Of a stretch of DNA of 64,000 nt, positions 1,610-15,075 are shown in pieces (positions within the stretch are counted from its first letter, which is position 1; the number at the start of each line of letters is the position of its first letter). Source of the DNA: Gemmatimonadetes bacterium T265 (GTDB lineage Bacteria; Gemmatimonadota; Gemmatimonadetes; Gemmatimonadales; Gemmatimonadaceae); the NCBI GenBank assembly GCA_019973575.1, contig BPUI01000001.1, positions 62,001-126,000 on the forward strand, written 5' to 3'. A program made the position numbers and the translations under genes. The notes beneath the pieces were generated by a model. That model saw only the letters and a list, made by a program, of their open reading frames with translations. It had not been told where the DNA came from and did no database searches.

Positions 1610-2460
1610 CCGCCCCCCCGGCGCTCGAACGCGTAGCTGCCGCCCGCGCGCAGCGACCCGTAGCGCGCGCCGTTGAACAGGTCGTACCGCGCCTCGGCCG
1701 ACAGGTGCACCGCGCGCAGCGGCAGCAGGTCGACCCCGAGCGCGCCCGTGGGGCCGAACGCGACGCCGTCGAGCGCGCGCGAGACGAATGTGCCGTCGAT
1801 CGTCGGGTTCTGCACGTTCAGGAAGTGGGCGCCGGCGCCGAGCGCGACCCACGGACGGACGCGCTCGGCGGGCCGGTGCCCCCCGAGGACCCGCGGCCGC
1901 CAGCGGGTCTCCGCGTTGAGCGCCACGTCGGAACTCCGCACGCTCCCGACCTGCACGGGGGCGCCGCCCGCCCCGGCACCGCCCGCCTGCGGGCCGCGCC
2001 CCCCGCCGAGCGCGCGCCCGAGCGCCCGCTCGAACCCGGCGACCGCCTCGTCGGTGTAGCGCGACGTCCAGTACGTCACGCCGGCGACGACGCGGAAATT
2101 CGGCACGATCTCGCCGTAATCCGCGTGCAGCGCGTAGAGCGTGGTGCTCCGCACCTGGTCGGGGAACACGACCCCGCCGGCGAACCCGATCTCGGTCAGC
2201 CGCAGCCGGTCGAGGCGAAGTTGCTCGAAGATCGACCGCTCCGGGCGGCGCGCCGCGGCGCGCAGCTGGCCCGCGACGATGCTGTCGCGCGCCGTGGAAT
2301 CGGTCACCGGCCGCCGCGCGGTGTCGGCGTGCGTCGTGTCGCGCCGCGCGGTGTCGCGCGCGGCGGGCGTCTGCGCGCCGGCCGTGGCGGCGCCGAGCAC
2401 GACGCCGACGCACGCGACGCCGGCCGTCGCGGCGCGCGCGCGATCACTCCACCGCGTCAA
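1606..2460 (-). CDS. Putative outer-membrane beta-barrel protein
   Basis: A 284-aa protein with a TTG start at 2458-2460 that overlaps the end of the SpoIID-like gene by 17 bp; no better start precedes the signal peptide. Residues 1-29 form a signal peptide ending in AGAQ. A Thr/Arg/Asp-rich linker follows, then alternating hydrophobic/polar stretches with frequent Tyr, Gly and Trp (for example FRVVAGVTYWTSRY and LSAEARYDLFNG), as expected for antiparallel membrane strands. I recognise no specific family. It sits between a SpoIID homologue and a DUF4105 protein in a tightly overlapped cell-envelope operon. Confidence 0.65.
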   Translation of the reverse strand: MTRWSDRARAATAGVACVGVVLGAATAGAQTPAARDTARRDTTHADTARRPVTDSTARDSIVAGQLRAAARRPERSIFEQLRLDRLRLTEIGFAGGVVFPDQVRSTTLYALHADYGEIVPNFRVVAGVTYWTSRYTDEAVAGFERALGRALGGGRGPQAGGAGAGGAPVQVGSVRSSDVALNAETRWRPRVLGGHRPAERVRPWVALGAGAHFLNVQNPTIDGTFVSRALDGVAFGPTGALGVDLLPLRAVHLSAEARYDLFNGARYGSLRAGGSYAFERRGGG

Positions 2461-3841
2461 CGGTCGTCCCCGGGTAGTAGGTCTGGAGGATGCGGCGGAA
2501 GTCCTGCCCCGCGCGCGCGCGGCCGATGGCCCCCCACTGGCACATGCCGACGCCGTGGCCGTTGCCGCGCCCGCGCAGCACGAGCCGCAGCACGCGCCCG
2601 TCGTCGCCCGACGTCACCGCGGCCGAAAAATACGTGCTCGGCAGGATGTCCGTGCCCGGGGCGGACTCCCGGCCGAGCGGGCTGCGCATCACGAAGCGGA
2701 CCGCGTTGCCGCGGAGCACGAACCGGCCGGCGTCGGTCGTCACGGCCACCGAGGCGGTCCGCCCCGACCCGGTCCGCTCGCCGGCCTGCCACGCGCGCAC
2801 GACGCCTAACGCCCCCCCGCGCGCGTCGCCCGGCGCGGCGTACCGCCGCAGGTAGCGCGCGAGCACCGCGTCGAGCGCGTCCGCGTCCCAGGCGCGCTCC
2901 CAGTGGGCGCGCGGCGCGATGTCGCAGTACGCCCGGTCCTCGCCCGGCACCGAGTCGCTCACGCGCCCGAGGTACGGCGCGCGCTCCGCGCCCCACACTT
3001 CCGCCGGGTCGGCCGTGCTCCCGCCGCACGCGGAGAAGTACGGGGCCGAAACGACCGCGCCGTCGTAGCGGAGCACGAGCCCCACGGTCGCGAGCAGCGC
3101 GCGGTCGGCGGTCGGCTGCTCCGCGCCGACGCCGCCGTACAGTTGGTCCTCGACGGTCGCGCGCAGGTCGTACGGCGCGGCCGCGCGCGCGACCGCCGCG
3201 GCGCGCGGCATGAACTCCGCCACGCGCGTGTAGAGGTAGCTGCGGGCGGCCACCGCCTGCGCCTCGACCGCCGGGAGATCGCCGGGGCGCTCGGTCGGCA
3301 GCTCGAGCGGCAGCACGCCGCGCAGGTACTCCTCCGCCGGGACGCGGTTCACGACCGTCACGCCGCCTCCGGCCGCGTGCAACCAGAGCGCGCCGCGGTA
3401 GTGCCGCCCGGCGTACCGAACGAATCCGTCGTCCGCGCGCTCCGGGCGCGCGACGAGCGGGCCGTCGATCCACGGCGTCGCCGCGCCAGCGGCCCCGGTC
3501 GCGCGCACGCGCCCGCCGCGCGCCTCGACCGCCCACGCGCTTCCGGCGGCCGCATGCGCGAGTACCGCGCCCTGGGCGTCCGCGAGCACCCACGGCCCGG
3601 TCGCCGTGACCTCGGCGCCGCGCGCGCCGAACGCGAGGCCAACGCGCACGACGCGCCCGCCGCTCGGCACCGCGCGCGTCGCGCGCGCCGGCCCCGGCGT
3701 CGCGGGCGGCGCGCCGGCCGGCGCGCGGGTCGCCGCGCCTAACGGCGACGGGCCGGCGTGGCAGGCGAGGCCCGCGGCGACCGCGCACGCGGCCCCGGCC
3801 GCGACCGCCCGGCCGCGCCGGCGCGCGCCGCGCGGGCTCAC
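2444..3841 (-). CDS. SpoIID/LytB domain protein (putative lytic transglycosylase-like lipoprotein)
   Basis: A 465-aa protein starting with GTG at 3839-3841, which overlaps the rimO stop as GTGA. The N-terminus has an Arg-rich start, a hydrophobic Ala/Gly/Val stretch and a cysteine (GLACHAG) that could be lipidated, although the lipobox is imperfect. The SpoIID hallmarks are VPAEEYLRGVLPLELP, QAVAARSYLYTR, YFSACGGSTADPAEVWG and the C-terminal RGRGNGHGVGMCQWGA, followed by an ILQTYYPGT end. In Bacillus, SpoIID cleaves peptidoglycan glycan strands during engulfment; in non-sporulating diderms the family is widespread and probably acts in envelope remodelling. Length is usual for the family with an extra N-terminal domain. 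Confidence 0.88.
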   Translation of the reverse strand: MSPRGARRRGRAVAAGAACAVAAGLACHAGPSPLGAATRAPAGAPPATPGPARATRAVPSGGRVVRVGLAFGARGAEVTATGPWVLADAQGAVLAHAAAGSAWAVEARGGRVRATGAAGAATPWIDGPLVARPERADDGFVRYAGRHYRGALWLHAAGGGVTVVNRVPAEEYLRGVLPLELPTERPGDLPAVEAQAVAARSYLYTRVAEFMPRAAAVARAAAPYDLRATVEDQLYGGVGAEQPTADRALLATVGLVLRYDGAVVSAPYFSACGGSTADPAEVWGAERAPYLGRVSDSVPGEDRAYCDIAPRAHWERAWDADALDAVLARYLRRYAAPGDARGGALGVVRAWQAGERTGSGRTASVAVTTDAGRFVLRGNAVRFVMRSPLGRESAPGTDILPSTYFSAAVTSGDDGRVLRLVLRGRGNGHGVGMCQWGAIGRARAGQDFRRILQTYYPGTTVDAVE

Positions 3842-5262
3842 CGCCCGTAGCGGCCGACCGGCGCCGCCGGCCCCGGGCCGGCGCCCGCCACCGCGAGCGG
3901 CAGTACGCGCGGCGCCCGCCGGCGCGCGGCCGGCGGCGCCGGCGCGTCGTGCGCCGCGCCGGTGGCCGTGGCGCGGAAGTCGTAGTCGTCGACGACCTCG
4001 CGCACGACGACCTCGACGAAGCTGCCCGCCGGCGCGGCGGTCTCGACCCACGTCACGCCGTCGACGTCGTCGGCCTGCCACGCCGCGCGGGCCTGCGCCG
4101 CCCCGGCCCCGCCCGCCGCCGCGCGGTCGACGAGCACCGTCGCGCGCGCGCCGACGCGTTCCTCGTACCGCTCCGCCGTGATCGCGCGCTGCAGCTCGGT
4201 CAGCCGCTCCAGCCGGTCGCGCTTCACGACGTCCGGCACGTCGTCGGCGAGGTCGTACGCGCGCGTACCCTCCTGCGGCGAGTACGCGAACGCGCCCACG
4301 CGGTCGAAGCGCGCCTCCTCGAGAAAGTCGCAGAGCGCGAGGAAGTCGTCCTCGGCCTCCCCGGGGAACCCGACGATGCACGTCGTCCGGATGGCCACCC
4401 CCGGCACTGCGTCGCGGAAGCGCGCGAGCTTCTCCCGCATCGTCCGCTGGCGCTCCGGGCGCCGCATGCGCGCGAGCACCGCGTCGCTCGCGTGCTGGAT
4501 CGGCATGTCGAGGTAGCGCACCACGCGCGGGCTCGCCGCGACGACGTCGAGCAGCCGCGGGGTGATCCCGGTCGGGTACAGGTACAGGTTGCGGTACCAC
4601 GGCACGCCCGTCTCCGCCAGCAACAATTCCAGCAGGTCGGGGAGCCGCACGCCGTCGCCCCGGTCCCGGCCGTAGTGCGCGAGGTCCTGCGCGACCAGGT
4701 TGACCTCGCGCGCGCCCTGCAGCTCGAGCAGCTGCGCCTCGCGCACCACGTCGGCCGGCGCGAACGAGCGGTGCCGCCCGCGCATGAGCGGGATCGCGCA
4801 GAACGCACACCCGTGGTCGCACCCCTCGCTGATCTTCAGGTAGCGCACGTGCGGCAGGTCGCCGGTGTAGAGCCGCACGCCCGGGTGCGCCGAGAGCGCG
4901 TCCGACGCGACGAGGCCGCGCGCCGCGAGCCGCGGCACGAGCTGGTCGACTTCGCTCGCGCCGAGGAACAGGTCGACCTCGGGGAGCGCCTCGGCCAGCT
5001 CGTCCTTGTGCCGCTGGACCATGCAGCCGACCGCCACGACCGCCTGGCACGCGCCGTCGACCTTGAGCCGCCCCGCCCCAACGAGCGCGTCGATGCTCTC
5101 CTGCTTGGCCGCGTCGATGAACCCGCACGTGTTGACGAGGATCACCTCGGCCTCGCTCGCGTCGTCGGTCGGCGTCGCGCCGTGCGCGACGAGCTCGGCC
5201 AAGTAGCGCTCCGAGTCGACGGTGTTCTTGTCGCAGCCGAGCGTGAGCAGGGCGACCTTCAT
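3838..5262 (-). CDS. rimO: Ribosomal protein S12 methylthiotransferase RimO
   Basis: A 474-aa radical-SAM enzyme that adds a methylthio group to an Asp of ribosomal protein S12. The N-terminal UPF0004 domain starts MKVALLTLGCDKNTVDSE, the RimO rather than MiaB signature, with further cluster cysteines in NTCGF and VGCM. The radical-SAM cluster motif is CDHGCAFC, followed by RIMO/MiaB-type segments (MPIQHASD, TCIVGFPGE) and a C-terminal TRAM-like domain. The N-terminus could begin at ATG 5260-5262 or three codons earlier at 5269-5271 (MLGMKV); a TTAGGC separates the two ATGs and neither has a clear Shine-Dalgarno. I prefer 5262 because it matches family starts. Confidence 0.95.
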   Translation of the reverse strand: MKVALLTLGCDKNTVDSERYLAELVAHGATPTDDASEAEVILVNTCGFIDAAKQESIDALVGAGRLKVDGACQAVVAVGCMVQRHKDELAEALPEVDLFLGASEVDQLVPRLAARGLVASDALSAHPGVRLYTGDLPHVRYLKISEGCDHGCAFCAIPLMRGRHRSFAPADVVREAQLLELQGAREVNLVAQDLAHYGRDRGDGVRLPDLLELLLAETGVPWYRNLYLYPTGITPRLLDVVAASPRVVRYLDMPIQHASDAVLARMRRPERQRTMREKLARFRDAVPGVAIRTTCIVGFPGEAEDDFLALCDFLEEARFDRVGAFAYSPQEGTRAYDLADDVPDVVKRDRLERLTELQRAITAERYEERVGARATVLVDRAAAGGAGAAQARAAWQADDVDGVTWVETAAPAGSFVEVVVREVVDDYDFRATATGAAHDAPAPPAARRRAPRVLPLAVAGAGPGPAAPVGRYGR

Positions 5263-5312: not shown

Positions 5313-5813
5313 CTAGCGGTAGTTGCCGAACTTCAGCTCGACGCCGAAGTCGCCCGTGCGCAGCAGCTGGATCGCCGCCTGCAGTTCGTCCTTGTCCGGG
5401 GCGGTCACGCGCACCTGCTCGGCCTGGATGCTCGCCTGCACCTTTTTTAGCTTGGCCTCCTTCACCGCGGCGGCGACCTTCTTGGCCGTGTCGGAGTCGA
5501 GCGCCGTCTTGAGCTTCACCTCGCGCCGCACGGTGTCGCCGCCCGCCGCCTCGATCTTCCCGACGTCCAGGTTCTTCACCGGCACGCCGCGCTTGATGAG
5601 CTTGGCCTGCAGCACGTCGAACAGCGCGGTCATCTGGAAGTCGCTGTCGGCGACGAGGCCGAGCGCCGACTCGGCGCGCCGGAAGTCGATCGCCGCCTTC
5701 GACCCCTTGAAGTCGTAGCGCTGCGCGATCTCCTTCTGCGCCTGGTTTACCGCGTTGTCGACCTCTTGGAGGTCGACCCCCGTGGTCACGTCGAACGAGT
5801 ACGTCTGGGCCAT
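5313..5813 (-). CDS. yajQ: YajQ family nucleotide-binding protein
   Basis: A 166-aa protein matching the full YajQ/UPF0234 family length. It begins MAQTYSFDVTTGVDLQEVDNAV, a characteristic N-terminus, followed by QRYDFKGSKA and a C-terminal GDFGVELKFGNYR. The fold is two ferredoxin-like domains; the Xanthomonas member binds cyclic di-GMP and acts as a regulator, while the E. coli protein is only known to bind nucleotides. It precedes rimO on the same strand with about 50 bp between them. A perfect 20-bp palindrome lies 32 bp upstream of the ATG. Confidence 0.95.
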   Translation of the reverse strand: MAQTYSFDVTTGVDLQEVDNAVNQAQKEIAQRYDFKGSKAAIDFRRAESALGLVADSDFQMTALFDVLQAKLIKRGVPVKNLDVGKIEAAGGDTVRREVKLKTALDSDTAKKVAAAVKEAKLKKVQASIQAEQVRVTAPDKDELQAAIQLLRTGDFGVELKFGNYR

Positions 5814-5844
5814 GCGCGCCGGCAGGGGGCGGGAACGGAACGGG

Positions 5845-5864
5845 GCGCAGCAACGTTGCTGCGC
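5845..5864. promoter_or_regulatory. Perfect 20-bp palindrome between divergent yajQ and arylsulfotransferase genes
   Basis: Two 10-base half-sites, GCGCAGCAAC and GTTGCTGCGC, meet with no spacer. The site is 32 bp from the yajQ start codon and about 190 bp from the divergent lipoprotein start. A spacerless long palindrome is a typical operator for a dimeric regulator, or could form a hairpin in the yajQ leader. No regulator gene is adjacent, so its binding protein is unknown. Confidence 0.5.
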
Positions 5865-5934
5865 AGTCGGGCGGGACGGGCGCAAGCTAACGCGACCATC
5901 GCCCGTGTGCGGTCGGTCGGCGAGTCTGGCGCGT

Positions 5935-5998
5935 TCCGGTGGTGGTTGCAATATTCGCGACGGCTTCGTCGGGCAGTCGCGTACGGACGCGTCCTCGT
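5935..5998 (+). promoter_or_regulatory. Leader/promoter-like block conserved between two arylsulfotransferase paralogues (copy 1)
   Basis: CTGGCGCGTT, 13 bp, then CAATATT at 5948-5954, and further on TACGGACGCG followed by CCTCG and CGGGC. The same elements in the same order and spacing recur upstream of the second paralogue, where CAATATT is at 7744-7750. CAATATT is 100 bp from the ATG at 6055 and 99 bp at the second copy. This is the only AT-rich stretch in either upstream region, so it is a candidate promoter core. It is inferred from conservation, not from a consensus match. Confidence 0.4.
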
Positions 5999-6054
5999 CG
6001 GGCCGGCGGAGCGGAGCCCCGTCTCCGTCCAACCTCATCGCCGCGCCTCCCGTC

Positions 6055-7287
6055 ATGTCCGTCGCTCCTCCGAACCGTCGCGCGTGGGTCGCGCGCGGCA
6101 CCCGCGCCGGTGCCCTCGCCTCGACGCTCGCCATCCTCGCGGCCTGCGCCGACTCCATCACGCCGACGGCGCCCGTGACCGCGACGGGGCCGAGCCTCTC
6201 GTCGGGCACGGCGAGCACGGCCGCCGTCCCCGACGTGGTGCGCCGCGTCCGCATCCAGACGACGACGGGGAAGGCCAGCCCGGGGTACGTGCTCACCGCC
6301 GTGACGCTCGGCGACACGCTGTACGCCGTCGCGTTCGACACGACCGGGACGGTCGTGTACTACCGCTCGTTCCCCGGCGTGACCGGGAACGGCGACGCGT
6401 ACGTCCAGCCCAACGGCGACTTCACCCTCTTCCTCGGCGCGACCAACGGGTGGCAGCCGCTCCCCGGCGCGTACACGGAGTTCCGGACGTCGGGCGCGCT
6501 CGTCCGCCAGTGGTCCGCGCCGTCGGGCTACTACAACGACCAGCACGAGCTGCGCGTCGGCACGGGCTCGAACCCGACGTACCTGTTCGGCTACGACTAT
6601 AAGGCGATGGACTTCACGTCCCGCGGCGGGAAGCCGGACTCGGTCGTCGCCGGCCACACCATCTTCAGCGTCGACGCGGGCGGCAACGCGAAGCCCGTGT
6701 TCGTGTCGCGCGACCACTTCAGCGTGGCCGACTGGATCGACCCGCAGGTCGGCGTCGGTGACTACGATCACCCGAACTCGATCGACGTCGACACGGACAA
6801 CGACCTCCTCATCTCGTGGCGGAACTTCGACGAGGTCTCGAAGATCGACCCGAACACGGGCCAGTTCGTCTGGCGCCTCGGCGGCCGCCACAACCAGTTC
6901 ACGTTCGTCAACGACCCGCTCAACGGGTTCGGCGGCCAGCACTTCGTCCGGCGGCTCGCGAACGGCAACATTCTGCTCTACGACAACGGGACGACGCACA
7001 GCCCGCAGGAGTCGCGCGCGGCCGAGTACCGGGTCGACCCCGTCGCGCACACGGCGACGCTCGTCTGGCAGTACCGGCACAGCCCGCGGATCTACACCCC
7101 GTTCGTCGGCTCGGTGCAGCGGCTCGCCAGCGGGAATACGTTCATCGGCTACGCGTATGTGGGCACGATGGCGGAAGTCACGCCCGGGGGGTCGGTCGCG
7201 TGGGAGGGCAAGCTGACGGTCGACGGCAAGGTCACGCTCGCGTACCGGCTGCTCAAGTACACCACGCTCGGCCACTTCCGTCCGTAA
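6055..7287 (+). CDS. Arylsulfotransferase-family lipoprotein, paralogue 1
   Basis: A 410-aa protein starting MSVAPPNRR, with a lipoprotein signal ending ILAAC. The mature part is a beta-propeller-like arylsulfotransferase domain of the Arylsulfotran_2 type: HELRVGTGS, GDYDHPNSIDVD, SWRNFDEVSKIDPNTGQF, VWRLGGRHNQF and ANGNILLYDNG. Family members transfer sulfate between phenolic compounds in the periplasm or have unassigned propeller roles; this copy's substrate is unknown. I chose the ATG at 6055 because it places the signal peptide at the N-terminus. It is the first of three tandem paralogues, about 70% alike across the core by eye, and is divergent from yajQ. Confidence 0.8.
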   Translation: MSVAPPNRRAWVARGTRAGALASTLAILAACADSITPTAPVTATGPSLSSGTASTAAVPDVVRRVRIQTTTGKASPGYVLTAVTLGDTLYAVAFDTTGTVVYYRSFPGVTGNGDAYVQPNGDFTLFLGATNGWQPLPGAYTEFRTSGALVRQWSAPSGYYNDQHELRVGTGSNPTYLFGYDYKAMDFTSRGGKPDSVVAGHTIFSVDAGGNAKPVFVSRDHFSVADWIDPQVGVGDYDHPNSIDVDTDNDLLISWRNFDEVSKIDPNTGQFVWRLGGRHNQFTFVNDPLNGFGGQHFVRRLANGNILLYDNGTTHSPQESRAAEYRVDPVAHTATLVWQYRHSPRIYTPFVGSVQRLASGNTFIGYAYVGTMAEVTPGGSVAWEGKLTVDGKVTLAYRLLKYTTLGHFRP

Positions 7288-7371
7288 GCGCGCGGACGCG
7301 CGCCGCGCCCGCGACACCGTGCACGCGATTCGCCGGTGGCGCGGGTCGCGTCCGGGGTGTTCCCGCGCCGC

Positions 7372-7674
7372 GGCGCATCGCGGACGAGGTCTCGACGATC
7401 GAGCCCAACACGGGCCGGTTCGTCCGGCGGCCGGCGCGCATCACCGCCGGTTCGCGTCCGTCGACGACCCGGTCGACGGGTTCGACCGCGCCGGTACGTC
7501 GTGCGCCGTGTGCCTAACGGCACCCTGCTCGTCGCCGGCCACCGGACTACGCACGGTCCACGCGACGGCACGCCGAGCGGCGCCGTGCCGTAAGAAGGCG
7601 GCTTGATGGTGGACGGCACGGCGGTGACCGCGTGCCGCTCGCTCGAGGTCGCGACGACCGGACACCTCCGTCCC
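7372..7674 (+). pseudogene. Decayed fourth arylsulfotransferase paralogue (C-terminal remnant, frameshifted and internally deleted)
   Basis: Reading across frames gives DEVSTIEPNTGRFV, then HRRFASVDDPVDGFD, then YVVRRVPNGTLL followed by GHRTTHGP, and finally LMVDGTAVTACRSLE with TTGHLRP. These line up in order with the intact copies (DEVSKIDPNTGQFVWRL, HNQFTFVNDPLNGFG, HFVRRLANGNILL, NGTTHSPQ, LTVDGKVTLAYRLLK, TTLGHFRP). At least two frameshifts are needed, and about 60-70 residues between the TTH motif and the terminal LTVDG strand are missing. There is no start. The order and spacing make chance similarity very unlikely. Confidence 0.8.
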
Positions 7675-7730
7675 GGACGACGGGCCCAACGCGTAGCGGT
7701 TTTGCTCGGTCCGCGCCGGGCTGGCGCGTT

Positions 7731-7803
7731 GGGCGGCTTCGAACAATATTGGCGCGGCCCCCGTTAGCCGGGCGCATACGGACGCGCCCTCGGCGGGCTA
7801 CCG
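7731..7803 (+). promoter_or_regulatory. Leader/promoter-like block conserved between two arylsulfotransferase paralogues (copy 2)
   Basis: CTGGCGCGTT, 13 bp, CAATATT (7744-7750), then TACGGACGCG, CCTCG and CGGGC, matching the region upstream of paralogue 1 in order and spacing. The distance from CAATATT to the ATG is within one base of that in copy 1. It indicates that the duplication carried its own expression signals. The third paralogue lacks this block. Confidence 0.4.
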
Positions 7804-7849
7804 GCGCAGCACGCCGCACCCCGTCTCACCTTTCGCCGTGCAGCCCCCT

Positions 7850-9085
7850 ATGTCCGTCGTTCACCCGAGCCGTCGCGCGTGGACCGCGCGCGGCGCCCGC
7901 GTCGGTGCGCTCGCCGCCACCCTGGCCGTCCTCGGCGCCTGCGCGGACTCGATCACGCCGACCTCGCCCGTGGGCGGCGCCAACGCGAGCGTCGCGACGT
8001 CGGCGACCCCGAACGCGTCGGTTCCCGACGTCGTGCGTCGCGTCCACCTCAACATGACCGGCCGCCCGTACGGGGGCTACATCGTCACGTCGCTCACGCT
8101 CGGGGACACCGCGTACGCCGTCGCGTTCGACACGACGGGCAAGGTCGCGTGGTACCGCGCGTTCCCGGGTTACTCGGGGAGCAGCGACGCGTACCTCCAG
8201 CCGAACGGCGACATGACGCTCGGCCTCGGCGCGTCGCGCGGGTGGGAGCCGGTGCCCGGGTTCCACCAGGAGTTCCGGCCGGCGACGGGGGCTCCCGTCA
8301 AGCAGTGGGCCGCGCCGTCGGGCTACTACACGGACCTGCACGAAATCCGGGTCGGCTCGGGCTCCAAGCCGACGTACCTGTTCGGCTACGACATCAAGCC
8401 GATGGACCTCCGCCCGCGTGGCGGCGCGGACAACACCCCGACGGCCGGCCACACGATCTTCAGCGTCGACGCGAGCGGCAACGCGAAGCCCGTGTTCGTG
8501 TCGCGCGACCACTTCACGACGGCCGACTGGATCAACCCCGAGACGCTCATTCAGGACTACGACCACCCGAACTCGATCGACGTCGACACGGACGGCGGCC
8601 TGATCGTCTCGTGGCGGAACTTCGACGAGGTCTCGAAGATCGACCCGAACACCGGACAGTTCGTCTGGCGTCTGGGCGGGCGGCACAGCCAGTTCACGTT
8701 CGTCAACGACCCGTTCAACGGCTTCAGCGGCCAGCACTTCGCCCGCGTCCTGGCGAACGGCAACGTCCTGCTCTACGACGACGGCAACGCGCACGCGCCG
8801 AAGGAGTCGCGCGCGGCCGAGTACAAGCTCGACCCCGTCGCGCACACGGCGACGCTCGTCTGGCAGTACCGGCACAGCCCGGCGATCTACACCCCGTTCG
8901 TCGGCTCGGCCCAGCGACTGCCTAACGGCAACACCGTCGTCGGGTTCGGCAACGTGGGCGTCGTCACGGAGGTGACGTCCTCCGGCTCGGTGGTCTGGGA
9001 AGGCACGCTCTCCGTCGACGGCAAGACCGGCGTACTGGCGTACCGCCTCCTCAAGTACACGTCGCTCGGGCACTTCCAGCCGTAG
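7850..9085 (+). CDS. Arylsulfotransferase-family lipoprotein, paralogue 2
   Basis: A 411-aa protein beginning MSVVHPSRRAW with a lipoprotein signal ending VLGAC. It shares nearly all core motifs with paralogue 1: PDVVRRV, HEIRVGSGS, DHPNSIDVD, SWRNFDEVSKIDPNTGQF, VWRLGGRHSQF, LPNGNTVVGF and a C-terminal YTSLGHFQP. A GTG four codons upstream (7838) is possible, but the ATG at 7850 matches the start of paralogue 1. Pro-Asn in LPNGN is written CCT-AAC, a heptamer site. Two strong hairpins follow the stop, so it is probably transcribed separately from paralogue 3. Confidence 0.8.
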   Translation: MSVVHPSRRAWTARGARVGALAATLAVLGACADSITPTSPVGGANASVATSATPNASVPDVVRRVHLNMTGRPYGGYIVTSLTLGDTAYAVAFDTTGKVAWYRAFPGYSGSSDAYLQPNGDMTLGLGASRGWEPVPGFHQEFRPATGAPVKQWAAPSGYYTDLHEIRVGSGSKPTYLFGYDIKPMDLRPRGGADNTPTAGHTIFSVDASGNAKPVFVSRDHFTTADWINPETLIQDYDHPNSIDVDTDGGLIVSWRNFDEVSKIDPNTGQFVWRLGGRHSQFTFVNDPFNGFSGQHFARVLANGNVLLYDDGNAHAPKESRAAEYKLDPVAHTATLVWQYRHSPAIYTPFVGSAQRLPNGNTVVGFGNVGVVTEVTSSGSVVWEGTLSVDGKTGVLAYRLLKYTSLGHFQP

Positions 9086-9103
9086 GCGCCTCGACGTGGA
9101 CCG

Positions 9104-9132
9104 GGCGGCCGGCTCCATCGGAGCCGGCCGCC
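9104..9132 (+). terminator. Perfect 13-bp hairpin after paralogue 2
   Basis: GGCGGCCGGCTCC, a 3-nt ATC loop, then the exact complement GGAGCCGGCCGCC, 18 bp after the stop at 9085. The stem is very strong but only weakly followed by T (TAACGATC), so it may be a GC-rich intrinsic terminator or an mRNA 3' stabiliser. Confidence 0.55.
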
Positions 9133-9151
9133 TAACGATCGGCGATGTATT

Positions 9152-9187
9152 GTGACCCGCGATACCGTCCCAGGTGTCGCGGGTCAC
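9152..9187. repeat. Inverted repeat upstream of paralogue 3
   Basis: GTGACCCGCGA at 9152-9162 and its complement TCGCGGGTCAC at 9177-9187 flank a 14-bp spacer. It lies about 115 bp before the start of paralogue 3 and 20 bp after the preceding hairpin. It could be an operator or a second terminator arm; the sequence does not decide. Confidence 0.5.
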
Positions 9188-9300
9188 GTCGTCTTAACGC
9201 TCGTGCGCCGCTGTGCGTTTTCGGGACACGTCCCGGGCAGGGCGGCACTCCGTCGCCTTTGCCTCGTCCTCGGCACCCACCGATCGCTCCCGTGCTCGTC

Positions 9301-10767
9301 ATGCACCTCCGGCGCCTTTCGACCTCTCCGCGCCGCGCCCGTGCGGCCGCCGCCGTACTCGTCTCCGTCGCCGCGGCTGGCTGCACCGACAGCACCGCCC
9401 CGTCGTCGGCAGTGGCCGCGACCCGCCCGGCCGCGACGGCGATTACTATCGTCCCGGACACCGCCAACGCGCTCGCCGTCTTCGTCGCGTTTAGCGTCCA
9501 CAACGCCGATTCCGCGCGCGTGCTCTACCGTGCCGGTGCGAACGCCGAACAGGCGACGGCGACCGTCGCGGTGCACGATTCGGCGCAGGTCCCGATCCTC
9601 GGCCTCCCGGCTGGCGTCGCGGCGACCGTGCGCGTCGTCGCGATTAGCGGGACGCGTGCCGACACCTCGCGCTCCATGACCGGCCCGGTGCCACCCGTGC
9701 CCGACGTGGTGCGCCGCGTTCACCTGCAGACGACGTCGGGCAGTCCGAGCGGCGGGTACGTGCTCACCGCCGTGAGCCTCGGCGATACCGCGTACGCGGT
9801 GGCCTTCGACACGTCCGGACGCGTCGCGTGGTACCGCGCGTTCCCCGGCGGCGGCCAGGCGAGCGACGCGTATCAGCAGCCGAACGGCAACGTTTCGGTC
9901 TTCGTCGGCACGTCGACCGGATCCAGCCCCGCCAACGGCTACTTCGCCGAGCTCCGGCCGACCGGCGAACTGGTACGGGAATGGCGCACGCCGGCGGGCT
10001 ATTATATGGACGGACACGAGCTCCGCGTCGGCGACTCGGGAGCGGCTTCGTACTACTTCGGGTACGACTACAAGCCGACGGACTACACGTCGCGCGGCGG
10101 GCCGGCCGACTCGGTGGTCGCCGCCCACACGATATTCCGCGTCGACGCGGGCGGCACCGTGACGCCGGTCTTCGCGGCACGCGACCACTTCACCGTCCCC
10201 GACTACGTGATCCCGCCGTTCAACTTCGGCGACTACGACCACCCGAACTCGCTCGACGTCGACCGCGACGGCGGGCTGATCGTCTCGTGGCGCAACTTCG
10301 GCGAGGTGTCGAAGATCGATCCCGCCACCGGGCAGTTCGTCTGGCGACTCGGCGGGGCGCACAACCAGTTCACCTTCGTCAACGACCCGCTCAACGGGTT
10401 CGGCGGGCAGCACTACGCGCGCGTCTTGCCTAACGGGAACCTCCTCCTCTTCGACAACGGCTGGACGCACGCCCCGTACGAAACGCGGGCGGTCGAGTAC
10501 CGCCTCGACGTCGCCGCGCACACGGCGACGCTCGTCTGGCAGTTCCGACACCAGCCCGTACTGTTCACGCCGTTCGTCGGCTCCGTCCAGCGGCTCGCGA
10601 GCGGGCACACGTTCATCGGCTACGCGTACAGCAACGTCGCGACCGAAGTCGACGCCGCCGGCGCGGTCACGTGGGAGGGCGACATCTTCATCGACGGGGC
10701 CCTGTCGACGGAGACGGCGTACCGGCTGCTCAAGATCCCGTCGCTCTCGCAGTACGGACTGCCGTGA
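9301..10767 (+). CDS. Arylsulfotransferase-family lipoprotein with extra N-terminal beta domain, paralogue 3
   Basis: A 488-aa protein starting MHLRRLSTSPRR, with a lipobox region ending AAAGC. Between the lipidation site and the shared PDVVRRVHLQT segment it has about 90 extra residues with alternating hydrophobic strands (FVAFSVHNADSARVLY), like the small N-terminal beta domain that precedes the propeller in AssT-type enzymes. The core repeats the family motifs HELRVGDSG, GDYDHPNSLDVD, SWRNFGEVSKIDPATGQF and VWRLGGAHNQF. It is the most diverged of the three copies and has its own upstream region. Confidence 0.8.
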   Translation: MHLRRLSTSPRRARAAAAVLVSVAAAGCTDSTAPSSAVAATRPAATAITIVPDTANALAVFVAFSVHNADSARVLYRAGANAEQATATVAVHDSAQVPILGLPAGVAATVRVVAISGTRADTSRSMTGPVPPVPDVVRRVHLQTTSGSPSGGYVLTAVSLGDTAYAVAFDTSGRVAWYRAFPGGGQASDAYQQPNGNVSVFVGTSTGSSPANGYFAELRPTGELVREWRTPAGYYMDGHELRVGDSGAASYYFGYDYKPTDYTSRGGPADSVVAAHTIFRVDAGGTVTPVFAARDHFTVPDYVIPPFNFGDYDHPNSLDVDRDGGLIVSWRNFGEVSKIDPATGQFVWRLGGAHNQFTFVNDPLNGFGGQHYARVLPNGNLLLFDNGWTHAPYETRAVEYRLDVAAHTATLVWQFRHQPVLFTPFVGSVQRLASGHTFIGYAYSNVATEVDAAGAVTWEGDIFIDGALSTETAYRLLKIPSLSQYGLP

Positions 10768-10815: not shown

Positions 10816-13689
10816 CTACCGCCCGAATCCGTACTTCACGCCGAGGATGAAGCTGCGCCCGTACGTTTCGCGCTGGACGCTGTAGGTCGCGCCCGGCGCG
10901 CCCTGGTAGAAGCCGAAGATCTCGTTATTGAGGTTGAGCCCCTGCAGTTGGACCGCGACGAGCGGCGTCACGTTCGCGATGATCGACGCGTCGACCTGCC
11001 CGTGCGGGTAGAAGTACGTGTCGCCGCCCGCCGTGCGCGTGCCGTCGCCGTAGCTGTAGATGCTGGCGCCCTGGTACTGCCACGACCCGCGCGCCGACAC
11101 CGGGCCGAGGTCGTACGTGAGAGCGAGGTTGGCGACGTTCGGCGACTGGCGCGCGAGCTGCGCGCGGCGCGCCACACTCCCGTCGCTGTTGAGCAGGGCG
11201 ACCTTCGACTCGACGTGCGTCCAGTTCACGTCGACGCCGACGCCCGCGAGCGCGCCGGGCAGGAACGCGAGGCGTTGCGTGTACTGCACCTCGGCGCCCG
11301 CGAGGTGGCCCGCGCCGCCGTTGGCCGGCCGGCGGCCGTAGTAGCCCTGGAAGTCGGTGACGGGTCCGCCGTAGATGAAGTTCTGGAGATAGATGAAGTC
11401 GGTGATCCGCTTGTAGAAGATTCCGCCCGACAGGACGCCGGCGCCGGGCAGGTAGCGTTCGCCGAGCAGGTCGTAGTTCCAGGCGTGCTGCGGCTTCAGG
11501 TCGGGGTTGCCGGCGGAGAGGTTGTTGTAGTTGGTCGCGCAGCTCGTGCAGACGTCGCCCTGCAGGTGCGGCGCGAGGTCGTAGTAGTTGGGGCGCGCGA
11601 TCGCGCGCGTGACCGCGAGGCGGAGGTTGCTCTGCGCGTCGAGCGCGTAGCGGAGCTGCGCGCTCGGGAAGAGGTCCACGTAGTTCTGCGAGCCCGGCGT
11701 GTTGGTGATCACGTACGCGCCCCCCTTCGGGCGGGTCGCGACGTTGCCGTCGTAGCTCGAATGCGTCGCCTCGAGGCGGAGACCGAGGTTGACGCGGAGC
11801 GGCCCGAAGTCGGTGGTGTTCATCCCGTAGCCGCTGTAGATCGTCTCGCCGCCGTTGAAGCTGCCGACCGCGTTGCGCGCCGCGTTCGTAGTGTTGGTGA
11901 ACAACCCCGCGTTCGCGTCCTCGTAGCGCGCGACCGCGCCGACCGCGGGCACGGGGCCGAGCGTGAAGCCGGGCGCGACGGCGCCGTAGTAGTCGGGGTC
12001 GGTGAAGCTGCTCTGGACCTGCGCGAGCGTGAGGCCGCCGGCGGCCGGGGCGTTGTAGCTGAACCGCTGGCCCGTGTTTACGTAGTCCTTGTGCTCGTCG
12101 CGCAGCTTGACGCCGAACTTGAACGTGCTGGGGTGCGCGTCGGCGCCGCCGAAGCCGTAGTGAAGCAGCGCGTTGACCTGCCCGCCGTCGTCGCGCCCCG
12201 TCGCGAGGCCGCTGTTGATCGAGTAGCCGGACAGCGCGTAGTTGGCCGGATCGAGCGACGCGACCGAGTCCGCCGCGTTGGTGAACCGGTAGCGCGGAGT
12301 GTTGATGTTCGACGCGTCGTAGACGAGCGGGACGCCGCTCCCGTCCGCGCCGGCGTAGGTGAAGTCGTTGAAGCGGTAGTTCGTTACCGACTGCCGCGTG
12401 CCGCTGAAATTCCCCGCGTAGTCGATCTCGAGGCGCCCGGCCGGGATCCGCCCGCCGGCGGTAAACCCGAACAGGCGTTCGATCGGCGTCCGGTTCGATA
12501 CCTCGCGCGTGAGCGTCGTGCCCGTGCCGATCCCGTCGGTCGTCGTCCCCGACGTCGGCGGGTTGCCGTCGGTCGCGAGGTCGTAGCGGTAGCGCGTGCC
12601 GAAGTTGCGGAAGTCGCTGTACAGCCCGCGCAGGTAGACGGAGCTGCCGCCCGCGAAGCGGTAGTCGACGGCGCCGCCCCCGCCGGCGCGCGTTCGACCG
12701 TAGACGTAGTCGCGCTGGTCCCATTCGACCGGGAACGAGCGCCCGCCGTCGTTGACGCCCCAGCCGCCCTCGAGGTCCTGGATCGAGCGGTTGTTGCGGT
12801 CGTAGGAGGCGCCGACCAGCACGCCCAACCGTTCCGCGTCGCCGAACCGGCCGCCGTATGTGAAGCTGGTCTGGCCCTGCTTCGCCGAGAGCTGGGTCTG
12901 CTGCCCGCCCTGGAGCGCGACGTAGCCGCGGGGCCGCCCCTCCGGCGTCTTCGTGACGAGGTTGACCGAGCCGCCGATCGCGTCCGCGTCCATGTCGGCC
13001 GTGAGCGTCTTCGAGATCTCGATCGCGCCTAACAAATCGCTCGGGACCGCGTCGAGCTTCGGGATGCGGTTGCCGGCCTCGGTGCCGGGGACGTGCGCGC
13101 CGTCGATCGTGACGTTGGACAGGCGCGGCTCCGTGCCGCGCACCTGCACGAACTTCCCCTCCCCCTCGTCGCGCTCGGTCGAGACGCCGGGCATGCGCGC
13201 GGCCGCCTCGGCCGCGTTCGCGTTGGGCAGGGCGCGGATGTCGTCGCCGGAGAGCGTGCTGACGATGTTGGCGGCCGTGTCGCGCCGCACGAGCGCCGCC
13301 TCGCGCGTCTCGCTCAGCCGCGGCGACGCGCGCACCACGACGGCGGCGAGGGTCGAGGCGGACGCCCGGAGCCGCAGGTCGCGCGCGGACGTCGCGCCGG
13401 CGGCGACGACGACGGTTGCGGAGTCGGACGCGTACCCGACGCGTCGTGCGACAAGCACGTAGTCGCCGGCCGGCACCGCCGCGATGCGGAACCGCCCCGT
13501 CGCGTCGCTGGTCGTGCCGAGTCGGGTGCCGCGGACGAACACGACCGCGTTGGGGAGGGCGACGCCGGCGGTGTCGACGACACGGCCGGTCACGGCGCCG
13601 GGAGCGGGCGCCTGCGCGACGAGGACCGGCGGAACGCAGAACAGCGCGGCGGCGAGCGCCGAGCCGGGGACGCGGGCAGAAGAACGCAT
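10816..13689 (-). CDS. TonB-dependent outer-membrane receptor with carboxypeptidase-regulatory-like N-domain
   Basis: A 957-aa protein. A signal peptide (residues 1-25) is followed by a carboxypeptidase-regulatory-like beta domain (about 31-115, GRVVDTAGVALPNAVVFV), a plug domain (about 135-260, with RMPGVSTERDEGEGKFVQVRG, NVTIDGAHVPGTEAG and ADMDADAIGGSVNLVTK) and a 22-strand-type barrel to the C-terminus. The DADAIGGSVNLVTK pattern resembles the TonB-Xanth-Caul subfamily, often linked to carbohydrate or oligomer uptake. No canonical TonB box was picked out. Substrate unknown. Its stop faces the arylsulfotransferase cluster; the promoter should lie in 13690-13915. Confidence 0.9.
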   Translation of the reverse strand: MRSSARVPGSALAAALFCVPPVLVAQAPAPGAVTGRVVDTAGVALPNAVVFVRGTRLGTTSDATGRFRIAAVPAGDYVLVARRVGYASDSATVVVAAGATSARDLRLRASASTLAAVVVRASPRLSETREAALVRRDTAANIVSTLSGDDIRALPNANAAEAAARMPGVSTERDEGEGKFVQVRGTEPRLSNVTIDGAHVPGTEAGNRIPKLDAVPSDLLGAIEISKTLTADMDADAIGGSVNLVTKTPEGRPRGYVALQGGQQTQLSAKQGQTSFTYGGRFGDAERLGVLVGASYDRNNRSIQDLEGGWGVNDGGRSFPVEWDQRDYVYGRTRAGGGGAVDYRFAGGSSVYLRGLYSDFRNFGTRYRYDLATDGNPPTSGTTTDGIGTGTTLTREVSNRTPIERLFGFTAGGRIPAGRLEIDYAGNFSGTRQSVTNYRFNDFTYAGADGSGVPLVYDASNINTPRYRFTNAADSVASLDPANYALSGYSINSGLATGRDDGGQVNALLHYGFGGADAHPSTFKFGVKLRDEHKDYVNTGQRFSYNAPAAGGLTLAQVQSSFTDPDYYGAVAPGFTLGPVPAVGAVARYEDANAGLFTNTTNAARNAVGSFNGGETIYSGYGMNTTDFGPLRVNLGLRLEATHSSYDGNVATRPKGGAYVITNTPGSQNYVDLFPSAQLRYALDAQSNLRLAVTRAIARPNYYDLAPHLQGDVCTSCATNYNNLSAGNPDLKPQHAWNYDLLGERYLPGAGVLSGGIFYKRITDFIYLQNFIYGGPVTDFQGYYGRRPANGGAGHLAGAEVQYTQRLAFLPGALAGVGVDVNWTHVESKVALLNSDGSVARRAQLARQSPNVANLALTYDLGPVSARGSWQYQGASIYSYGDGTRTAGGDTYFYPHGQVDASIIANVTPLVAVQLQGLNLNNEIFGFYQGAPGATYSVQRETYGRSFILGVKYGFGR

Positions 13690-13915: not shown

Positions 13916-14953
13916 TCAGCGGTCGAGCACGAGCACGGTGAACGAGCCCGCGACCATCGCCGGCCGGGGGTGCGGCCGGGCCGCCGTGGACGCCGGCGCC
14001 GGGCCGTACCGCGCGACCGGCACGTACACCCGGTGCGTGCGCGCGTCGAGCGCTATCGTCTTCCCGCCCGGGCCGGTGGCGACCGTCGCGGGCGCGAGCG
14101 CGCCGTCGTCGGTGGCGACGACGGTCAGTGTGCCGTCACGCGCGGAGGCCAACGCGAGGTGCGTCGCCGGGTCGAACGCCGTCGCGTCGATGTCGTCGCC
14201 CGCGGGCACCGTGGTCACGACGCGCCCGGTGCGCGCGTCCACGACGGCCATCCGCCGGTTCGCACAGCCGACGTAGAGCCGCATCGCCGCGGGATCGAGC
14301 GCGAGCCCGGTCGGCCCTTCGCAGGGCGCGAGCGGGTAGCGCCCGAGGACCGCGAGCGTACGCGCGTCGAAGGCGACGACCTCGCTCCGGTCCTCGAGGT
14401 TGACGAAGACGCGCCCGGACCCGTCGGCCTGCGCGAACTCGGGCCGGCCGCCTAACACCAGCGTGCTGACGACGGTGTCGGCCGCGGCGTCGATCACGGT
14501 CGCGGTCGCGCTGCCGCCGTTGAACGCGAACACGCGCCGGGTGCTCGGCTCGTAGAGAATCGCGTCCGGGTTGCGCCCGGTCCCGCGGACGCGGGCGACG
14601 GTCGCGAGCGTCTTCAGGTCGAAGACCGTCACGGACGAGTCGCGGCCGTTGCTCACGTAGCCGCGGCCGAGGTCCGCGGCGACGGCGATCCCGTGGACAC
14701 CCGGCGTGTCGCCGACGTCGCCGACGACGCTGTCGCGGTCGGTGTCGATCACCATGACGTGCGTGGCGCGGCTGACGTAGAGCCGGTGCGCCGCGGTGTC
14801 GACGGTCAGGTAGTCCCAGCCGCCCTCGCCGCCCGCGGCGATTCGCCTCACAACGTGGTAGGCGCCGGTCGTCGGCGGCTGCGCGCGGGCCCCGCCGGAC
14901 GCGGAGGCCAGAGTCGCGGCGCAGACGAGTGCGGGAAATGTCGGACGGGGCAC
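13916..14953 (-). CDS. Secreted YncE-like beta-propeller (YVTN-repeat) protein
   Basis: A 345-aa protein. The GTG at 14951-14953 gives VPRPTFPALVCAATLA, a signal peptide ending near ARAQ; a longer frame to 15028 exists but would put non-signal sequence in front. The mature part has repeated propeller blades with the recurring pattern TxHRLYV...VIDT: HRLYVSRATHVMVIDTD, GRGYVSNGRDSSVTVFD, RRVFAFNGGSATATVID, MRLYVGCANRRMAVVD. This is the YncE/cytochrome-d1-like fold; such proteins bind ligands or DNA in the periplasm, often in metal or carbohydrate stress. It is transcribed in the same direction as the TonB receptor. Confidence 0.75.
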   Translation of the reverse strand: MPRPTFPALVCAATLASASGGARAQPPTTGAYHVVRRIAAGGEGGWDYLTVDTAAHRLYVSRATHVMVIDTDRDSVVGDVGDTPGVHGIAVAADLGRGYVSNGRDSSVTVFDLKTLATVARVRGTGRNPDAILYEPSTRRVFAFNGGSATATVIDAAADTVVSTLVLGGRPEFAQADGSGRVFVNLEDRSEVVAFDARTLAVLGRYPLAPCEGPTGLALDPAAMRLYVGCANRRMAVVDARTGRVVTTVPAGDDIDATAFDPATHLALASARDGTLTVVATDDGALAPATVATGPGGKTIALDARTHRVYVPVARYGPAPASTAARPHPRPAMVAGSFTVLVLDR

Positions 14954-15075
14954 GCGGCGGCTCCGGGTCGGGGCGGACGAGGGGTGGCGGACGGTGGGCG
15001 TCAGTGTAGCCGCCGCCCGCCCACCCACCGCCCCACGTGGCCGACTCGTGACCGCGAGGCGGCCGAGTCGTTACG

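Follow-up and report, generated by a model that had tools for sequence, protein, structure and literature searches.

The DNA window analysed here, 64,000 nucleotides of contig BPUI01000001.1 (positions 62,001 to 126,000) of Gemmatimonadetes bacterium T265, contains three adjacent genes for arylsulfotransferase-family lipoproteins (positions 6055 to 10767 of the window). Sequence comparisons and structural models make it probable that these genes arose by tandem expansion, specific to this lineage, of a gene for an exported, lipid-anchored sulfotransferase from the AssT/Cpz4 superfamily, which would work independently of 3′-phosphoadenosine 5′-phosphosulfate (PAPS), by a ping-pong mechanism through a sulfohistidine. 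The family assignment, the active-site residues, the propeller model, the lipobox, the common origin of the copies, the domain loss and the decay of a fourth copy are all covered by sequence or prediction. The enzyme family is already known and transfers sulfate groups from one small molecule to another; what is new is how the genes are arranged, as three copies and a relic, with the N-terminal domain lost in two of the copies.

The tandem array

Copy 1 (6055..7287, 410 amino acids), copy 2 (7850..9085, 411 amino acids) and copy 3 (9301..10767, 488 amino acids) lie on the plus strand, all in the same direction, each with an ATG start and an unbroken frame. Each protein has a signal sequence and a lipobox, whose cysteine (Cys31 in copies 1 and 2, Cys28 in copy 3) is the only one in the protein. 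Protein identity amounts to 69% between copies 1 and 2, 63-64% between copies 1 and 3 and 59-60% between copies 2 and 3, and the motifs DHPNS, SWRNF and VWRLGG are present in all of them. These data bear out the first-pass annotation, which had described three full-length tandem paralogues with lipoprotein signals and this shared motif set. Copy 3 has an N-terminal beta-rich domain (FN3-like, uncertain) that copies 1 and 2 lack. A search of the whole host genome (5.63 Mb in 6 contigs, 97.6% complete) with the protein and with the PF05935 and PF14269 profiles identified no further intact copy.

All three copies exceed the cut-offs of both arylsulfotransferase profiles, scoring 82.8, 82.4 and 74.8 bits (copies 1, 2 and 3) with PF05935 (cut-off 24.2) and 70.9, 85.4 and 73.9 bits with PF14269 (cut-off 27); a search of the three proteins against NCBIfam gave no useful match. 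The placement in the arylsulfotransferase family proposed from the sequence is confirmed by these scores. When a profile built from a 30-row family alignment was run against the PDB, it matched Cpz4 with an E value of 1.9e-63 and E. coli AssT with one of 7.7e-27. AlphaFold models of copies 2 and 3 (mean predicted local distance difference test, pLDDT, of 81.0 and 75.2), to which all fold results refer, point in the same direction. The copy 2 model aligns with Cpz4 (9kf6) at Z 40.1 over 339 residues (2.6 A) and with AssT (3ets) at Z 30.9 over 334 residues (2.9 A), the next entry being TolB at Z 20.3; for copy 3 the corresponding values are Z 40.0 over 347 residues (2.7 A), Z 31.6 over 336 residues (3.0 A) and Z 20.4, again for TolB. 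A beta-propeller like that of AssT and Cpz4 is thus predicted for both (Z 31-40), far above other propellers (Z 20). Profile scores, residue conservation (see below) and models together exclude that the open reading frames are artefacts of DNA with 73.6% GC; the tandem array is real and, to judge from its sequence, probably functional.

Active site and proposed mechanism

A 2026 review (PMC13426309) describes His436 of E. coli AssT as the residue that becomes sulfurylated and places His252, His356, Asn358, Arg374 and Thr501 around it in the active site. Equivalent positions were located by counting along the profile alignment to PDB 3elq (E. coli AssT). His252, His356, Asn358, Arg374 and His436 correspond to H164, H239, N241, R256 and H296 in copies 1 and 2 and to H239, H314, N316, R331 and H371 in copy 3, so that the catalytic histidine, whose absence would have spoken against an arylsulfotransferase, is kept in all copies together with four partner residues. 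No row departs from the three histidines and the asparagine, either among the 30 aligned rows or among the 46 (44 different) of a wider set, in which the arginine is kept in 41. Rows L001-L003 and L028-L033, which duplicate the host genome, were kept out of the 30-row alignment (A1), as were the fragment L019 and two truncated duplicates from G014. The wider set comprised frames of at least 300 amino acids in which the match covered 280 or more, taken from L004-L027 and L034-L063 after near-identical rows had been dropped; some identical own-genome rows stayed in it, and the "copies" group of the tree hence reads 3 changes.

By analogy with AssT, a sulfate ester would dock at the centre of the propeller, where the His436 equivalent (H296 in copies 1 and 2, H371 in copy 3) would receive the sulfuryl group and the desulfated donor would depart. 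A second hydroxyl compound would then take the sulfuryl group, held meanwhile by the equivalents of His252, His356, Asn358 and Arg374. Catalysis itself we infer, along with the compartment in which it would occur and the use of differing acceptors by the copies. The suggestion that the array handles sulfated compounds is plausible, although the data point to no particular substrate.

Origin and divergence of the copies

The interval between copies 1 and 2 holds a decayed fourth arylsulfotransferase copy (plus strand, about 7372-7672). An nhmmer profile of the three coding sequences matches it in two pieces, the first at about 7372-7559 with E 1.4e-25, the second at about 7571-7672 with E 2e-07, and blastn aligns it with copy 1 at 75% identity over 173 nucleotides (E 1.1e-26); none of 200 mononucleotide shuffles scored above 40 bits. 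A repeat finder likewise places four copies in register (repeats D5 and D6). The remnant has a deletion between its two pieces and a disrupted frame, and it has lost the catalytic QH motif. Sequence outside the copies is repeated as well: a stretch upstream of copy 1 (5949..6012, plus strand) is repeated upstream of copy 2 (7744..7810, plus strand), the two being 73% identical across 67 columns. This identity suggests that the leader DNA was probably part of the duplicated unit.

The three copies form a single clade in the tree (support 100/99), within which copies 1 and 2 are sisters (100/100). Closer homologues in related genomes match the greater part of copy 3, including its N-terminal domain, and the profile match starts at position 3-13 in most rows listed in a survey of the phylum (see below), as compared with 109 in copy 1 and 107 in copy 2. 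Taken together, homologue alignments, profile starts and tree therefore indicate loss of the domain in copies 1 and 2: the domain is usual in the phylum and was most likely lost once, before these two copies split. On the same three observations a gain of the domain by copy 3 is rejected. What had been noted as an "extra" N-terminal beta domain is indeed present, and is better read as ancestral than as extra. In the copy 3 model the domain is beta-rich and of low confidence, and its FN3-like matches are weak; compared with the N-terminal sandwich of AssT, the domain of the copy 3 group scores -2.3 bits, which is no significant sequence match.

Ratios of nonsynonymous to synonymous substitution rates (dN/dS; Nei-Gojobori method, own script) over all aligned codons are 0.49 for copies 1 and 2, 0.60 for copies 1 and 3 and 0.56 for copies 2 and 3; on core codons they fall to 0.45-0.53. 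The dS values are about 0.4-0.7. By these estimates the copies are under purifying selection, which is not strong.

Distribution of the family

The survey covered 298 genomes of the phylum, with five candidates scored per genome, so that copies beyond the fifth would escape the count, and 78 of the genomes listed by row. A family match at E 1e-15 or better was found in 58 of the 298, the host counted among them. Three copies occur in the host only, and two matches in six other genomes. The two members in G014 stand in tandem; those of G149, G219 and G167 lie on different contigs, and those of G273 are two pieces of one frame. In G240 (contig C140; L079:7397-10654) the matches form an inverted pair with identical scores, probably an assembly palindrome. 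Six loci outside the phylum were also inspected. Two adjacent members are found in L022 and L027 (KSB1) and three in L024 (Limisphaerales). The three adjacent frames of L024:6525-15360 are mutually divergent, and those of the tandem pairs in L022:6025-11006 and L027:7611-13400 extend 200-500 residues beyond the family match, the second L022 frame running into the contig end.

In the tree, the two members of the pair group together as sisters in L022, in L027 and in G014, so that tandem duplication in the family has to be counted, on sequence grounds, as at least four independent events, at least three of them in other lineages. The loci in this comparison were chosen non-randomly, so the count yields no rate; L021 and L069, on contigs of equal length, apparently come from one and the same contig.

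These data bear on the possibility that the copies are redundant or decaying duplicates produced by unequal recombination, one gene being enough for the cell. Such an origin is compatible with an enzyme and denies only specialisation; we regard it as possible, though somewhat doubtful. A dead copy inside the array, the confinement of three copies to one of 298 genomes and dN/dS values of 0.45-0.60 would all fit. Pure redundancy does not predict long retention, however, and long retention is what the three intact frames suggest, with their divergence of 59-69% identity and dS of about 0.4-0.7 and with the catalytic set unbroken. Selection for the expansion, which the first-pass annotation had read from the tandem arrangement, is only slightly favoured, in view of dN/dS values of 0.45-0.60, of the dead sibling and of the singularity of the three copies.

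Neighbouring genes and the sulfuryl donor

Downstream of the array, on the minus strand, lie genes for a TonB-dependent receptor (10816..13689, TIGR01782) and a YncE-like beta-propeller protein (13916..15028, with beta_rpt_yvtn repeats). On its other side, also on the minus strand, a frame at 5313-6341 contains YajQ (DUF520) in its C-terminal part (E 3.8e-58), and the family search identified a SpoIID domain in a frame at 2444-5128. Further neighbours, named by reading their translations without a family search, we take to be RimO-like, a sigma factor, LepB and aldehyde-dehydrogenase-like.

Twenty homologous loci were fetched for comparison, at least five of which (L064, L066, L068, L070 and L073) end early at a contig end. 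In none of the 20 do the TonB receptor, YncE-like, YajQ, RimO-like, SpoIID-domain, sigma factor or LepB genes stand beside the homologue; the sole neighbour match is a 28% identical aldehyde-dehydrogenase-like frame in L070. When all frames of these loci were clustered, no family occurred in more than three of them apart from the arylsulfotransferase itself and the shadow frames that overlap it. The families found in three loci mostly reflect synteny within one genus (L067, L069 and L071), and a few span genera.

The array, the TonB receptor and the YncE-like propeller might be thought to form an uptake-and-modification module for sulfated compounds, as their adjacency in the window could suggest. 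Both genes are present on the other strand, as first described; that opposite orientation and their absence beside the homologue at all 20 loci, at least five of them cut short, argue against a functional link and make such a module very improbable.

As to the donor, the host genome has no match to the PAPS sulfotransferase profiles PF00685 and PF13469 and no convincing adenosine 5′-phosphosulfate (APS) kinase, the matches to which are weak, mostly partial and barely over the cut-off; a single protein exceeds the cut-off of PF00884. Nothing in these searches thus points to a pathway by which the cell would make its own donor, an absence from which scavenged aryl sulfate may be proposed as the donor. 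A relay of the Cpz type, in which a PAPS sulfotransferase loads a type III polyketide carrier, was considered and is not supported: besides the missing sulfotransferases and the weak APS kinase matches, type III polyketide synthase gave one partial match barely over the cut-off, on another contig.

Several observations weigh against a sulfotransferase role for the array. In the profile alignment, each copy has Val at the position of AssT Thr501. The AssT disulfide is impossible in them, as they have no second cysteine. Beside the homologues at the 20 loci, neither a gene for making the donor nor one for a sulfatase or a transporter was seen to be conserved. Some relaxation of selection is also possible, because the dN/dS values are moderate and one copy is dead. 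The first two points are softened by the review already cited (PMC13426309), in which Cpz4, with Gln at the Thr501 position in our alignment, is active and the disulfide is confirmed solely for the E. coli enzyme. The propeller and its histidines could serve another job at the cell surface, such as binding or hydrolysis of sulfate esters or binding of other anions, without transfer. The Val substitution, the lack of an evident sulfation pathway and the lack of a conserved partner gene would agree with such a role; we nevertheless consider it unlikely, given that the full H/H/N/R/H set is found in all copies, in Cpz4 and nearly throughout the family, and a propeller devoted to mere binding need not keep it.

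Significance

In the most far-reaching scenario, a bacterium with no detected PAPS-dependent sulfotransferases would keep several lipid-anchored enzymes with diverged acceptor preferences, which would draw sulfuryl groups from environmental aryl sulfates and decorate the cell's own surface or environmental phenolics, so that sulfation would depend on scavenged donors in place of PAPS. This scenario is speculative and has a rather small chance of being right. For most such enzymes the natural substrates are unknown, as stated in the 2026 review (PMC13426309). Three natural paralogues, of which two lack the N-terminal domain, would allow a clean comparison of the roles of this domain and of the acceptor site, and the array might be a source of new enzymes for producing sulfated compounds.

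Comparison with known enzymes

The best match, by sequence and by model, is Cpz4, the caprazamycin sulfotransferase of Streptomyces sp. (PDB 9kf4 and 9kf6). According to its title, entry 9kf6 is of a crystallised reaction intermediate; a literature search found no relevant paper for the two PDB codes. Cpz4 has the same H/H/N/R/H positions as the three copies, and its aligned region begins near its N-terminus, as in the domain-less copies 1 and 2. It differs in overall sequence (about 22-24% identity in the fold alignment) and in having Gln where the copies have Val. Its role is in antibiotic biosynthesis (PMC13426309). No such biosynthetic context was seen around the array, where the identified close neighbours are the YajQ, SpoIID-domain, TonB and YncE-like genes and no cluster search was run. 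An enzyme described in PMC12135136 was set aside as a comparison, being PAPS-dependent.

With AssT of E. coli CFT073 (PDB 3elq, 3ets, 3ett and 4p04-4p07) the copies share the predicted propeller fold (Z about 31) and His252, His356, Asn358, Arg374 and His436. They differ from it in sequence (about 20% identity), in keeping neither its disulfide nor Thr501 and in being lipoproteins. The N-terminal beta-sandwich of AssT is absent in copies 1 and 2, and the beta-rich domain of copy 3 bears no significant sequence resemblance to it.

Nearer relatives are the other arylsulfotransferase-family lipoproteins of Gemmatimonadota, which have the architecture of copy 3 and, in most cases, a lipobox. The closer ones (L004-L013, L020 and L021) are 35-43% identical to copy 3 along most of its length. 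Apart from the tandem pair of G014, these genomes mostly carry one copy each, as against three in the host.

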